A DNA stretch of 33,027 bases from Myxococcales bacterium (GTDB taxonomy: Bacteria > Myxococcota_A > Polyangia > Polyangiales > Houyiibacteriaceae), in NCBI GenBank assembly GCA_019637115.1, contig JAHBWH010000086.1:1-33027 (forward strand). Reading direction: 5' to 3'. Position numbers and translations under genes: made by a program. How positions within the stretch are numbered: the first letter of the stretch is position 1; each line of letters opens with the position of its first letter. This document shows positions 15,931-21,559 of the stretch, piece by piece. The notes below the pieces were generated by a model. It was given only the letters and a program-made list of their open reading frames with translations, did no database searches and was not told the origin of the DNA.

Positions 15931-16131
15931 ATGATCCACGTTCGATTCGAAGGTCGCTCGTACGACTTCGACCTCGCCGAGCTCCCGCTGAACGCGGCGC
16001 TCACCGACCAGACCATCAAGCAGCGCGTCGCGCAGAAGCTCGACGTCGGGCTCGATCGACTCGCGTCCTACGTCGTCGATCGCTCGCCCACGGGGCACGT
16101 GATCGTCCGGCCCGAGGCGCTCTACGGCTGA
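15931..16131 (+). CDS. Beta-grasp, ubiquitin/ThiS-like small protein (66 aa)
   Basis: A 66-residue protein with the element order of a beta-grasp fold: strand MIHVRFEG, strand SYDFDL, helix TDQTIKQRVAQKLDV, then strands ASYVVDR and HVIVRPEAL. It ends in Tyr-Gly, so a C-terminal glycine is available for adenylation, though it lacks the Gly-Gly of ubiquitin and ThiS. The start is secure: GGAGG at 15921-15925 lies 5 nt before ATG. It is the first gene of the plus-strand block that contains Y-type RNAs, a Ro60-like protein and, at 20924, an E1/ThiF-like enzyme. I infer that it is the protein that the E1 activates. The fold is read by eye. A simple DNA-binding or unrelated small protein remains possible. 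It may be transcribed with the RNAs, which begin 64 nt later. Confidence 0.7.
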   Translation: MIHVRFEGRSYDFDLAELPLNAALTDQTIKQRVAQKLDVGLDRLASYVVDRSPTGHVIVRPEALYG

Positions 16132-16195
16132 CGCCGGGAGCGCGGCCACCCCGCGACATGCGGGCGGCTGCGTCATCTCGGCTCCTCTCGATTCG

Positions 16196-16298
16196 CCCCG
16201 CGCTCCGACCCGCGAAGCGTACACACTCCGGGGCCGAGGCAGGGGTGAGAGTCCCCTCCTCGGCAGAGTTTCGAACCGCTTCCCCAACTCGCGCGGGG
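16196..16298 (+). ncRNA. Candidate Y RNA 1 (divergent body)
   Basis: The first of four related RNAs. P1 is CCCCGCGC (16196-16203) with GCGCGGGG (16291-16298), 8 perfect pairs. The internal loop is UCCGACCCGC on the 5' side and CCCAACUC on the 3' side. P2 is GAAGCG (16214-16219) with CGCTTC (16277-16282). UACACAC follows P2, as in the other copies. The enclosed body is not a clear tRNA: it is one long hairpin, 16233-16239 with 16258-16264 extended by GGGG/CCCC, then a TTTCGAA stretch like a tRNA T-loop. A pyrimidine tract (TTTCTCTTTCTC, 16299-16310) directly follows P1 and may act in termination. Stems are seen directly; the Y RNA name is inferred from the shared stem and the Ro60-like gene downstream. 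Confidence 0.7.
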
Positions 16299-16385
16299 TT
16301 TCTCTTTCTCTCGAGGAAGCCCTCGGCAACGTCCGAGGTCCTTCTCCTTCTCCCGAAGGGAGCTAGGAGTCCCTTCGAGCCTCTC

Positions 16386-16530
16386 GGCGTCGTAGCTCAA
16401 TTGGTAGAGCAGCAGTTTGTTTCGGCTCCAGCGACTCGCGCGACGAAGGTCGTGCTCTCACGGCGGGAGCTCTACACACATCGGGCTGTTAACCCGCTGG
16501 TTCTCGGTTCGAGTCCGAGCGACGCCACCA
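16386..16530 (+). ncRNA. tRNA-Asn(GUU) carrying an inserted Y-RNA-type stem
   Basis: A complete tRNA-Asn can be read around a 69-nt insert. Acceptor stem GGCGTCG/CGACGCC is perfect. The D arm is GCTC-AATTGGTA-GAGC, the anticodon loop is CTGTTAA, the T arm is CTCGG-TTCGAGT-CCGAG, the discriminator is A and CCA is encoded (16528-16530). Removing about 16414-16482 restores a perfect anticodon stem (GCGGG/CCCGC), so the insert lies between positions 28 and 29; the junction is ambiguous by one base. The insert folds as the Y stem of the neighbouring RNAs in permuted order: P2 16424-16429 with 16466-16471, loop ending ACUC, P1 16438-16444 with 16449-16455 closed by GAAG, loop UCUCACGGC, then CUACACAC. 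Whether it is spliced, charged, or only a tRNA mimic cannot be told. Confidence 0.75.
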
Positions 16531-16560
16531 ACTCTCTCGATCTCTTCGTATCGCGATCAC

Positions 16561-16670
16561 GCTCGTGCTCCGACCGCGGCGGCCTACACACGTCCTTGGA
16601 TGGACATCAGCCTCTCATGCTGACGACGGGTTCGAATCCCACAGTCCCGGCCGCCCACACTCGCACGAGC
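16561..16670 (+). ncRNA. Candidate Y RNA 3 with tRNA-like body
   Basis: P1 is GCTCGTGC (16561-16568) with GCACGAGC (16663-16670). The internal loop is UCCGACCGC / CACACUC. P2 is GGCGGCC (16578-16584) with GGCCGCC (16649-16655), and UACACAC follows. The enclosed body imitates a tRNA: a D-like arm GTCC-TTGGAT-GGAC, an anticodon-like arm TCAGC-CTCTCAT-GCTGA (CUC at the anticodon), and a T-like loop TTCGAAT closed by only three G-C pairs plus a further GAC/GTC helix. With a 3-bp T stem, no CCA and P1 outside the acceptor-like helix it cannot be an ordinary tRNA. This resembles the established YrlA class of bacterial Y RNAs, which carry a tRNA-like module and bind Ro60. Confidence 0.75.
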
Positions 16671-19661: not shown

Positions 19662-19727
19662 TCGCCCCCGCGAGGCGCCTCCGGCCGAGCACGTTGACCG
19701 AGCGCGCCGGGCCCGCGCTGGGCCGAG

Positions 19728-19844
19728 CACGCTGAGCGATCACGCTGAGCGATCACGCTGAGCGATCACGCTGAGCGATCACGCTGAGCGATCACGCTGA
19801 GCGATCACGCTGAGCGATCACGCTGAGCGATCACGCTGAGCGAT
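19728..19844. repeat. Nine exact tandem copies of a 13-bp repeat
   Basis: The unit CACGCTGAGCGAT is repeated nine times without change. Degenerate units of the form CACGCTGGCCGAG continue to about 19925, and related ones begin near 19683. Each unit junction contains AGCG-ATCA-CGCT, a 4-bp inverted repeat around GATC. Perfect identity implies recent expansion or active homogenisation. The array fills the gap before the gene at 19945, which has no obvious ribosome-binding site. Confidence 0.9.
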
Positions 19845-19944
19845 CACGCTGGCCGAGCACGCTGGCCGAGCACGCTGGGCCGGACACGCTGGCCCAGCGC
19901 GCCTGGCCGAGTACGCCCGGCCAAGACCAGTCGAACCAAACGCC

Positions 19945-20823
19945 ATGTCCCGTCTGCACGACCTCCTCGATCGCCTCGCCGCGGCGGAGCAACAGCTCGC
20001 GCAGCGCCGCTTCGTCGCGCCCTGCGTCCCCGGCGTGGTGCTGCGCGTGCGGGTCGAGGGGATCGTGCAGGCCTTCGCCCCGACCCCCGCGGACTTCGAG
20101 GGATGGGGCCTCTTTCAGCCGATCGACGCGCGACGTGCGCGGCTCGGTGAGCGCGCCGACCCGGCCACGATCGATCGGTACCTGGCGCTCCTGCCTCGCG
20201 TCGTGCTCATCGCCGTTCGCCCGGCGAAGGGCGCGGCGGGCCGCGCGTGGTGGGCGATGCCGGCGAACCGCGAGGCGTTCCGTCGGCGCTTCCGCCGCGA
20301 GGGTCCCGTCGTCGTGCAGCTCACGGACGGGCTGGCGCCCTTCGACACGATCGTCGCGCGCTTCGACGGCGCGAGCTTCTGGCACGCCGCCATCGACTCC
20401 CTCGCCGACCCGCGCCTCGCCGACGCGCTCCGGCGTGCGCAGGCGGAGTGGGCGCTCCCCGAGTCGGTCGTGCATGCCGGACTGACGCCGGAGCATCGCG
20501 ACGCCTACGGCCTCGCGCTGGCCGCGCGCCTACGAGCTCACGAGTGGGCAGCTCGTGACGACGCGGCCGCCCTCGAGCTGCGCCTGCGTCGCGCCCTGCA
20601 CGTGGGCGGCGGACGCTTCGAGTCCGTCCGCACACGCGACGATGGCCTCACGGTGGGCTGGGTCGACCGGGACGGTCACCACCACACGACCTTCCTCGCC
20701 GACGACGCGAGCTCCGTCCAGAGCGCGGGCGCGATCTGCTTGCAGGGCCGCGACGCCGACTTCGACCTCGCGTCGCTCGTGGGCGTCGTCACCGACGCAC
20801 CCGATCACGTCCGCTTCGACTGA
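19945..20823 (+). CDS. Protein of unknown function in the Ro60/E1 block (292 aa)
   Basis: I cannot name this family. It is a soluble protein with no signal or membrane segment. An N-terminal helix (about 1-22) leads to a strand-rich domain, with FVAPCVPGVVLRVRVEGIV near 23-41, an aromatic FEGWGLFQP near 51-59, YLALLPRVVLIAVRP near 79-93 and WWAMPAN near 101-107. VVVQLTDGLAPFDTIVARFDGASFWH follows near 123-148, then a helical region (about 150-210). A second strand-rich domain (about 213-292) includes VGWVDRDGHHHTTFL. The gene lies between the amidotransferase-like gene and the E1/ThiF-like gene, which starts 100 nt downstream. Position suggests a role with the E1, for example as target, conjugating factor or Ro60 partner, but nothing in the sequence proves it. 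Confidence 0.7.
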   Translation: MSRLHDLLDRLAAAEQQLAQRRFVAPCVPGVVLRVRVEGIVQAFAPTPADFEGWGLFQPIDARRARLGERADPATIDRYLALLPRVVLIAVRPAKGAAGRAWWAMPANREAFRRRFRREGPVVVQLTDGLAPFDTIVARFDGASFWHAAIDSLADPRLADALRRAQAEWALPESVVHAGLTPEHRDAYGLALAARLRAHEWAARDDAAALELRLRRALHVGGGRFESVRTRDDGLTVGWVDRDGHHHTTFLADDASSVQSAGAICLQGRDADFDLASLVGVVTDAPDHVRFD

Positions 20824-20923
20824 GCCCATCCTCGGACGACCCCGGACCTCTACCTGGCGAGGTGAGCGGGCCCTCGCACCCTTCGACCGAGCGCCTGGCG
20901 CTCGACCCTCAGGAGATCCACCG

Positions 20924-21559
20924 ATGTCCGTCTTCCTCCACGAGCTCCGACACCGAGGCGCCGACGCCATGACGCGGCTGCGCGACGGGCGCGTCGTCGT
21001 CTGCGGCGTGGGCGCGCTCGGCAGCCACCTCGCCAGCTCGCTCGCGCGCGCGGGCGTCGGTCACCTCCGCTTGGTCGACCGCGACCGCGTGGAGGAGCGC
21101 AACCTCTCGACCCAACCGTGGGCGCGCGCAGAGGTCGGCGCCCCGAAGGCGAAGCTCCTCGCCGCGCAGCTCTACCGCGCCGTCGGGGTCGACGCCGAGG
21201 CGCACGCGGTCGAGCTCTCGGACGCGAACGCGAAGAAGCTGCTGCGCGGCGTCGACCTCGTCGTCGACGCCTTCGACAACGCCGCCTCGCGCGCGTGCGT
21301 CCAGCGCACGGCGGCCGCGCTCGGGCTGCCTTGCCTGCACGCGGGGCTCAGCGGAGACGGCTACGGCGAGGTCGTCTTCGACCCCGGCTACCCCGTACCG
21401 AGCGCGGCGGGCGAGGACGTCTGCGACTACGCCCTCGCCGGCACCTTCGCGCTCTTCACGGCGACGCTCGCCGCGGAGCTCGCGCTGCGCTTCCTGGTCA
21501 CGGGCGAGCGCCGCGGCGCCGCGCTGACGTTCGGGGATCTGGTGGTGCGGATGCACTGA
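20924..21559 (+). CDS. E1/ThiF/MoeB-like adenylyltransferase
   Basis: A 211-residue Rossmann-type enzyme of the ubiquitin-activating (ThiF/MoeB/E1) family. It should adenylate the C-terminal glycine of a beta-grasp partner with ATP; the 66-residue protein at 15931 is the obvious candidate. Motifs: VVVCGVGALGSHLASSL (24-40) is the nucleotide loop, LRLVDRDRVEERN (48-60) ends in the conserved acidic strand, and NLSTQPW (60-66) is followed by GAPKA (72-76) with the catalytic Lys76. VDAFDNAASR lies at 114-123. The usual NLNRQ arginine is replaced (NLSTQ) and the paired CxxC zinc knuckles of MoeB/ThiF are absent; Cys167 in GEDVCDY is a possible thioester residue. It is shorter than MoeB (about 250). 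AGGAG at 20911-20915 is 8 nt before the ATG. Confidence 0.88.
   Translation: MSVFLHELRHRGADAMTRLRDGRVVVCGVGALGSHLASSLARAGVGHLRLVDRDRVEERNLSTQPWARAEVGAPKAKLLAAQLYRAVGVDAEAHAVELSDANAKKLLRGVDLVVDAFDNAASRACVQRTAAALGLPCLHAGLSGDGYGEVVFDPGYPVPSAAGEDVCDYALAGTFALFTATLAAELALRFLVTGERRGAALTFGDLVVRMH

Follow-up and report, generated by a model that had tools for sequence, protein, structure and literature searches.

Ro60 and its Y RNAs are medically known autoantigens, and the locus described here encodes a bacterial Ro60-like protein with Y-type RNAs together with a ubiquitin-like protein (UBL) and an E1-like enzyme. The locus lies in a contig of 33,027 nucleotides from a Myxococcales bacterium (assembly GCA_019637115.1, contig JAHBWH010000086.1), and this whole stretch will be referred to as the window. 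According to its open reading frames and to inspection, positions 15931-21559 of the plus strand carry the UBL gene, four Y-RNA-like units and the genes for a Ro60-like protein, P310, P292 and the E1-like enzyme (Table 1). The original prediction of a one-strand module made of a UBL, Y RNAs, a Ro60-like protein, two further proteins and an E1 is confirmed, and the module is larger than it was described to be.

Table 1. Features of the gene set, with positions in the window.
Feature	Position	Strand	Basis
UBL, 66-aa ubiquitin-like protein, tail RPEALYG	15931-16131	+	ORF; AlphaFold2 pLDDT 84.7; structure neighbours Z 4-5
u0, minihelix-like core enclosed by Y-type stem	about 16195-16299	+	folding z -3.34; Y5 and Y3 motifs
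u1, tRNA-Asn-like RNA, Y-type stem inserted behind D arm	about 16386-16529	+	sequence inspection; folding z -2.55
u2, tRNA-like core within Y-type outer and inner stems	about 16561-16670	+	folding z -3.23
u3, tRNA-like core within Y-type stems	about 16721-16840	+	Rfam tRNA 37.8 bits; folding z -2.29
Ro60/TROVE-vWA-like protein, 486 aa	16919-18379	+	hhalign probability 97 vs TROVE proteins; PF25045 in 5/22 relatives
P310, optional accessory protein	18729-19661	+	in 12/80 loci (best 80 of 258 relatives)
P292, core protein, weakly OB-fold-like	19945-20823	+	alignment n=24; model pLDDT 78.3; OB-type neighbours Z up to 7.4
E1/ThiF-like adenylyltransferase, 211 aa, Cys167	20924-21559	+	PF00899 ThiF 1.5e-33

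Proteins and RNAs of the gene set

Judged by profile comparison, the window protein is a divergent Ro60/TROVE-vWA protein, and RNA binding by this branch of Ro60 is putative. The Pfam family TROVE (PF05731) does not match it, with no match listed for 22 relatives and 0 in its own genome, and a PDB search with its sequence returned no match. Homology to Ro60/TROVE proteins was found when its family was compared, profile to profile, with 12 aligned proteins encoded at PF05731 loci (E 1.2e-10, 419 columns), and it spans both the HEAT-like and the vWA parts; the family profile also retrieved two TROVE chains in the PDB (E 0.039), and the best match of a family member to PF25045 (vWA_Ro60) had a value of 6.7e-05. 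Residues D301, S303, S305, T364 and D388, which we take to be those of the vWA metal site (DxSxS, T, D), are invariant in the 22 relatives. The TROVE-VWA label originally given to the protein therefore holds through the profile comparison and PF25045 in relatives, despite the PF05731 miss.

The model of the UBL has the strand order of a beta-grasp protein and mostly ubiquitin-like structure neighbours (ubiquitin, a MoaD subunit, PB1), so that the fold proposed for this 66-residue protein is also the one predicted by AlphaFold2. Foldseek gave no match to the model with E below 0.1, no Pfam or NCBIfam match was obtained, and PF02597 (ThiS) is absent at the UBL gene. The tail RPEA(V/L/I)YG ends 60 of the 60 distinct relatives among those listed; a single terminal Gly is invariant, and across the family, viral copies included, the ending is Tyr/Phe-Gly, not Gly-Gly. 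The UBL thus has neither the Pfam ThiS match nor the Gly-Gly tail of ThiS/MoaD sulfur carriers.

The E1 belongs to the ThiF family and carries no fused domain. Its GxGALG motif, D54, R55, N60, K75, D115 and Cys167 are invariant in 19/19 relatives, and Cys167 and the ATP-site residues are also kept in 4 viral copies, as expected for a predicted member of the E1-like adenylyltransferase superfamily with its fold, ATP site and candidate catalytic Cys. Against curated equivalog models for metabolic E1s of the ThiF/MoeB kind it scored 94.8 of 159, 93.4 of 275.25 and below cut-off with the other listed models too. Elsewhere in the host genome there are three ThiF-family and three ThiS-family matches, so thiamine or molybdopterin work does not have to fall to the UBL/E1 pair. 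A role of the pair in thiamine, Moco or cysteine synthesis was rejected on the missed cut-offs and on these other matches, and a PRTRC identity for the E1 on its score (40.7 of 144.75 bits). A known defence system was set aside, since among five window proteins only the E1 matches, and only generic E1-E2 models.

P292 is characterized by a C-terminal motif with an invariant Cys265 and FDLxSLVGV, and the neighbours of its model are OB domains of proteasomal ATPases and IF1. Its fold is uncertain. P292 as a candidate E2 was set aside undecided, the model being OB-fold-like with a low-confidence tail around Cys265 and without a Foldseek match under 1e-3.

Regarding the RNAs, ARAGORN reported no tRNA in the window and Rfam a single one (16748-16811); the four units were recognised by inspection and folding. 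They have a common Y-type stem with an internal loop, and tRNA-like cores in normal or permuted order. In u1, the acceptor pairs GGCGTCG/CGACGCC, followed by ACCA, can be read from the sequence, and a 143-base Rfam tRNA match in a related locus (L020) has the same architecture. A Y5 pattern matched 263 times near upstream vs 33 times elsewhere and 0 times on the opposite strand; the pattern was composed after examples had been seen, the other strand and the flanks served as controls, and some flank matches are true units. Two duplicate loci (L019 and L020, identical to L029 and L030) were removed ahead of the pattern and unit counts. Since the outer stem belonged to the unit definition, the inner stem alone constitutes the test, and its pairing reached 6.53 of 7 vs 5.65 (maximum 5.75 in 500 partner shuffles). 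Among 298 units, 117 are unclassified, many of them permuted-looking by eye. By sequence, the units have the stem with an internal loop, the position beside Ro60 and the tRNA-like module of bacterial Y RNAs, and the Y-type RNAs of the original prediction are borne out.

Cyanobacterial loci also hold units resembling 23S rRNA, with H69-71 in 22 loci and with H42-44 plus the sarcin-ricin loop in 21. These rRNA-like units match 23S of the host and of E. coli by blastn; among the Rfam matches listed for four cyanobacterial loci, none to LSU rRNA covered them.

Distribution, linkage and gene order

Weak Ro60 matches (2 of 18 cyanobacterial and 12 of 16 Myxococcota genomes) were excluded ahead of the co-occurrence counts. 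The UBL was then found in 13 of 194 sampled cyanobacterial genomes, each with a strong Ro60-like match (13/13; Fisher 9.5e-18, p-values being overstated because the loci are related), and P292 in 15 of the 194, all among the 16 Ro60-positive ones. In Myxococcota, the 4 of 377 genomes with the UBL are the same 4 with Ro60 matches above 400 bits. In one genome (G462), an extra UBL copy lies on a separate contig that has no Ro60. The original interpretation is thus borne out in part: the tie of the UBL/E1 pair to Ro60 is strongly supported, every sampled genome with the UBL having this Ro60 family, but tagging and sulfur transfer are candidate roles.

Gene order was surveyed in the loci of the best 80 of 258 relatives. 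Complete sets of UBL, Ro60, P292 and E1 occur in 36/80 loci with 0 order violations, the order is kept in 4/4 viral records, and in the fetched loci the UBL is always the first gene of the set. Recurrent linkage to TROVE, on which the original prediction had been staked beforehand, survives, the order being constant in Myxococcota, Cyanobacteria and phages. That these genes recur in an unchanged arrangement in another class, in other phyla and in phages places the gene set beyond chance. Among these best 80 of 258 relatives, the UBL is missing in 8 of 64 loci with room for it, and P292 and E1 are both missing in 22 of 57; either Ro60 can therefore dispense with the pair or its two genes sit at a greater distance.

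A JAMM-motif gene is present in 7/7 sister loci (phage and divergent myxobacterial copies), which fits a UBL with an activated C terminus; the motif was found in 0/80 loci of the window lineage (best 80 of 258 relatives) and nowhere in the window. Six loci with divergent TROVE proteins (L023-L028) were also inspected, and a second UBL was seen in three of them but not in L023 and L024, which have little flank on one side, or in L027, which is a weak match. Its relationship to the UBL (hhalign probability 49, E 1.7e-4) is no more than suggestive. The gene set occurs on a plasmid, in large phages and adjoining tRNA genes or arrays in several genomes. Its extra genes vary, and some islands carry RNA repair or translation genes (Tpt1/KptA, RNA ligase, bL12-like, EF-Ts-like, RRF).

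Tagging, sulfur transfer and other readings

Our preferred reading, to which we give about an even chance, is a Ro60 RNP dealing with tRNA or translation damage, whose dedicated UBL would be activated by the E1 for E2-independent tagging. The Ro60 ring would hold the Y stems and display the cores, which tRNA-damaging, tRNA-repairing or tRNA-using enzymes would meet as decoys, sensors or scaffolds; the E1 would adenylate the C-terminal Gly of the UBL and then accept it on Cys167; and the UBL would be passed, perhaps with the help of P292, onto an RNP protein or a bound client, marking or regulating the recipient under translation stress. JAB, where encoded, would mature or remove the UBL. This reading is supported by the co-occurrence, the fixed order, the invariance of the UBL tail and Cys167, the JAMM gene of the sister loci, the RNA-repair and translation genes and the Y stems; it is weakened by the single-Gly tail, the lack of JAMM in the window lineage, the sets without the pair, and an E2 being absent from the 25 families listed for 80 of 142 neighbour ORFs. 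A more specific version, tentative and rather doubtful as a whole, takes Ro60 as a scaffold with a library of RNA imitations of those components of the translation machinery on which RNA-damaging toxins act, the UBL system tagging the bound attacker or client. The imitated parts would be tRNAs and, in cyanobacteria, also the 23S elements mentioned above, serving as decoys or damage sensors.

The main rival, which we regard as unlikely though serious, is sulfur transfer, in which the E1 would make a UBL thiocarboxylate, and this would thiolate tRNAs or tRNA-like RNAs that the locus encodes. A ThiF-like E1 lacking a fused domain would suit it, E1-only sulfur systems exist, and tRNA arrays and tRNA-like RNAs adjoin the UBL/E1 pair, whereas known sulfur carriers end in Gly-Gly, and no thiouridylase, rhodanese or cysteine desulfurase, nor any other sulfur enzyme, is among the 25 families listed for 80 of 142 neighbour ORFs, although housekeeping genes could serve. 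Improbable in our view is a UBL acting as a regulatory RNP subunit, non-covalent or E1-adenylated, never transferred to a target; its shortness, its first place in the set and the same absence of a listed E2 are compatible with such a subunit, but the invariant terminal Gly, the invariant Cys167 and the JAMM-motif genes argue against it. That the genes are merely carried along by a mobile island with tRNA arrays and have no joint function, as plasmid, phage and array contexts with variable extra genes might suggest, is very improbable given that every complete set has the same order and strand although other genes vary, and that co-occurrence in two phyla is near-perfect.

Relation to known systems and significance

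Bacterial Y RNAs are said to mimic tRNA, with a Ro60-type stem and a tRNA-like module beside Ro60, in work attributed to Chen in 2014 and in related studies. The units described here similarly join an internal-loop stem to a tRNA-like module next to Ro60, but a locus has several of them, some are permuted or inserted, and cyanobacterial ones include cores resembling 23S rRNA. The Urm1, TtuB and SAMP systems have a UBL and an E1 with no dedicated E2, possess Gly-Gly tails and are linked to tRNA thiolation, Urm1, TtuB and SAMP2 carrying sulfur as a thiocarboxylate. The present set shares the UBL, the E1, the missing dedicated E2 and the tRNA setting, but not the tail, nor sulfur enzymes among the listed neighbour families. 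Long tRNA gene arrays, cyanobacterial and plasmid-borne, are reportedly induced by translation inhibitors (attributed to Santamaria-Gomez, 2021), and the set adjoins such cyanobacterial or plasmid arrays in several genomes.

The Salmonella rsr-yrlBA-rtcBA operon, in the parts of the source consulted, encodes a Ro60 orthologue together with Y RNAs, of which one has a tRNA-like domain, and its context is RNA repair (PMC7790460). It thus resembles the window in coupling Ro60 to Y RNAs that include a tRNA-like one, but there RtcB and RtcA accompany Ro60, whereas in the window UBL, P292 and E1 do, with several tRNA-like units; the main text of that source makes no mention of ubiquitin, Ubl or E1-like proteins. 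Prokaryotic gene clusters that pair a UBL with an E1 and include JAB or E2 have also been described (Iyer 2006, PMC1779556, in the sections consulted), and the present set is similar in its adjoining UBL and E1-like genes and in the JAB of some lineages, but different in having no E2 among the listed neighbour families; Ro60 and TROVE are absent from the text of that source. A literature search of incomplete coverage found no paper joining Ro60/TROVE with UBL/E1, and an earlier description is possible.

The module makes the purpose of Ro60 and Y RNAs addressable in culturable cyanobacteria. Its linkage suggests protein tagging or sulfur transfer in the service of bacterial RNA surveillance, and its occurrence in phages suggests a use in conflicts that concern tRNA and translation. 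Conjugation of the UBL, if it occurs, would make the set a ubiquitin-like system of bacteria whose RNA setting is defined and which has no obvious E2. If the more specific scaffold version is true, bacteria and phages would have in common a ubiquitin-like response to translation damage that is guided by RNA mimics.

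Conservation of the gene set

The window is an entire contig from an 8.9-Mb assembly of 434 contigs, and the five proteins placed in it by the original prediction lie at agreeing positions: a 66-residue ubiquitin-like protein (UBL), a Ro60 protein, two unnamed proteins (P310 and P292) and an E1. Pfam TROVE does not match the window's Ro60 protein, and the Ro60 vWA model is matched by 5 of 22 family members; profile-profile comparison of the family with 12 proteins of PF05731 loci gave a probability of 97 (E 1.2e-10, 419 columns). Judged from sequence comparison, the window's protein is a separate, divergent Ro60 branch. 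Of the 194 cyanobacterial genomes searched for the UBL, 26 contain PF05731 matches, and some of these 26 also have the window's Ro60 family.

A scan of genome contigs found 258 relatives, the best 80 of which were kept; these are chiefly from Cyanobacteria, with some contigs labelled Armatimonadetes, Actinomycetota or bacterium CPR1, and the named close relatives are one Myxococcota MAG and one Sandaracinus MAG. The window's order (UBL, Ro60, P310, P292, E1) recurs at two loci (L019, L020) and, without P310, in another class of the phylum (L021); UBL, Ro60 and P292 were seen at L022. The UBL is encoded at 56 of the 64 loci having more than 6 kb upstream, and P292 and E1 at 35 and 33 of the 57 having at least 7.5 kb downstream. 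UBL, P292 and E1 occur together at 36 of 80 loci with no violation of order, and the sole locus with E1 and no UBL has just 739 bases upstream. The UBL is absent from 8 loci with room for it, and P292 and E1 are both absent from 22; therefore, genes of this Ro60 family are not always accompanied by the set. A protein of 241 residues and no known family is encoded at L085 and 39 other loci, in every case on the Ro60 strand and upstream of that gene, and tandem repeats lie between the set genes and after E1 in the window (see table).

A search starting from the UBL avoids the bias of fetching loci by Ro60. The UBL profile was positive in 13 of 194 cyanobacterial genomes and Ro60 was strong in 16 (two weak Ro60 matches were left out of these counts); all 13 have a strong Ro60-family match (Fisher 9.5e-18, ignoring kinship), which strongly supports the proposed tie of the beta-grasp/E1 pair to Ro60. 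G462, one of these 13 genomes, encodes an additional UBL on a different contig, where a P292 fragment but no Ro60 match is present. P292 was found in 15 of the 194, every one among the 16, and in Myxococcota the UBL occurs in 4 of 377 genomes, precisely the four whose Ro60 matches exceed 400 bits.

The set is also found on mobile elements. One 595-kb uncultured phage record, matched by both E1 and Ro60 queries, encodes UBL (tail RPDAIFG), Ro60, P292 and E1 in order on a single strand, with 20 tRNA genes within the 24-kb stretch read. All three contigs found by a viral-contig scan share this order; their UBL tails are RPQAVFG, RPEAVFG and RPEAVFG, and they have 13, 1 and 4 tRNA genes, respectively. 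The set is present on a Kovacikia minuta plasmid too, where the 25 kb read include 33 tRNA genes. Translation inhibitors reportedly induce tRNA arrays. Proteins of the Tpt1/KptA, RNA ligase, bL12-like, EF-Ts-like and AAA kinds are encoded at some cyanobacterial loci, and a ribosome recycling factor at one viral locus.

Y-type RNA units

Four RNA units lie between the UBL and Ro60 genes of the window (u0 to u3); ARAGORN detects none of them and Rfam one. In units u2 and u3, an internal loop separates the outer stem (CTCGTGC/GCACGAG) from the inner one, and the core that they enclose is tRNA-like; u1 resembles tRNA-Asn, having an acceptor stem of its own and ACCA, but contains an inserted stem of the u2/u3 kind, and u0 has a minihelix-like core with a Y-type stem around it.

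Across loci, the Y5 sequence pattern gave 263 matches up to 4 kb upstream of Ro60 vs. 33 elsewhere on the same strand and none on the other; a nearby match was present at 76 of 89 loci, and the cellular pattern was absent at every phage UBL locus checked. Defining a unit by both strands of the stem yielded 298 units at 79 loci: 108 tRNA-like by ARAGORN (with widely varied anticodons) and 7 by pattern, 14 permuted, 22 with 23S H69-71, 21 with 23S H42-44, 5 merged, 4 with a T-loop only and 117 unclassified. Inner-stem pairing exceeded that of shuffled partners, and no rRNA match arose among shuffled versions of the 298 units. All 21 H42-44 units contain AGTACGAGAGGA, which is the sarcin-ricin loop; H42-44 is the L11/GTPase-centre region.

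The H69-71 units, seen at 22 loci, are apparently permuted, placing the Y stem at the H69 loop. Those with the sarcin-ricin sequence and H42-44 (21 loci) mostly follow the Ro60 gene. At five loci, very short Y-type units that lack a tRNA-like core lie just upstream of Ro60 and are possibly a leader or autoregulatory element.

Features of the window and of related loci
Feature	Locus	Position
Tandem repeat, 52 bases	window	18385-18624
Tandem repeat, 13 bases	window	19724-19877
Tandem repeat, 6 bases	window	21621-21755
Y-type unit, core 23S H69-71 AACGGTCCTAAGGTAGCGA	L085	5800-6040
Same	L047	4050-4265
Same	L037	5455-5700
Y-type unit, core sarcin-ricin loop + 23S H42-44	L184	15204 onward
Same	L050, L053, L092	
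Very short Y-type unit	L031, L032, L035, L037, L043	~130-210 bases upstream of Ro60 start
241-residue protein	L085	6288-7013
Viral record, whole UBL-Ro60-P292-E1 set, tRNA genes, JAMM-motif gene	L183 (LR756511.1), L193, L194, L195	
bL12-like gene, cyanobacterial island	L070	7345-7737
EF-Ts-like gene, cyanobacterial island	L038	10602-11207
Tpt1/KptA gene, cyanobacterial island	L036	9197-9754
RNA ligase gene, cyanobacterial island	L067	10885-11922
NADAR gene, cyanobacterial island	L048	12531-12971

UBL, E1 and the JAMM-motif gene

The beta-grasp fold foreseen for the small protein was returned by structure prediction (pLDDT 84.7); the structural neighbours shown are nearly all ubiquitin-like, with modest Z (4-5), and Foldseek gave no E under 0.1 for the model. 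The tail RPEA(V/L/I)YG ends all 60 distinct sequences listed. E1 identity is clear by Pfam, and its ATP-site residues and Cys167 are kept in 19 of 19 relatives and in four viral copies. As a ThiF or MoeB equivalog, the E1 scored below every cut-off listed.

A second Myxococcota lineage (L025, L026, L028) has a divergent TROVE protein, a JAMM-motif gene, a UBL of its own of 80-90 residues and an E1, surrounded by tRNA genes. The JAMM-motif gene is close to UBL or E1 at 3 of 3 of these loci, and such a gene is equally close at 4 of 4 viral loci; the window has none, and neither does any of the 80 loci of its lineage. In a family scan of neighbours, covering 80 of 142 listed ORFs (core genes and some short or antisense ORFs excluded; 25 of 26 families viewed), Pfam Prok-JAB was assigned to 3 members, two of them also seen singly. 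Because residues follow FG, the UBL of the divergent loci would need trimming; that of the window's lineage would need none, since its chain ends at Gly.

Mechanism and novelty

The constituent parts are of known kinds; a stable union of Ro60, tRNA-imitating RNAs, UBL, E1 and P292 was not found in the literature searched, which missed some important papers, and the text of Iyer 2006 (PMC1779556) mentions neither TROVE nor Ro60. A stress link for the set is suggested by a Chlorogloeopsis TROVE-domain gene that responds to erythromycin (PMC6424891), although this gene is possibly one of the other TROVE family. The UBL, E1 and JAMM evidence favours joining of the UBL C terminus to something, and is neutral between protein tagging and sulfur transfer. 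Sulfur transfer, ranked second, seems rather unlikely; ranked first, with about an even chance of being right, is that the set would be a Ro60 RNP for tRNA or translation damage with UBL tagging.
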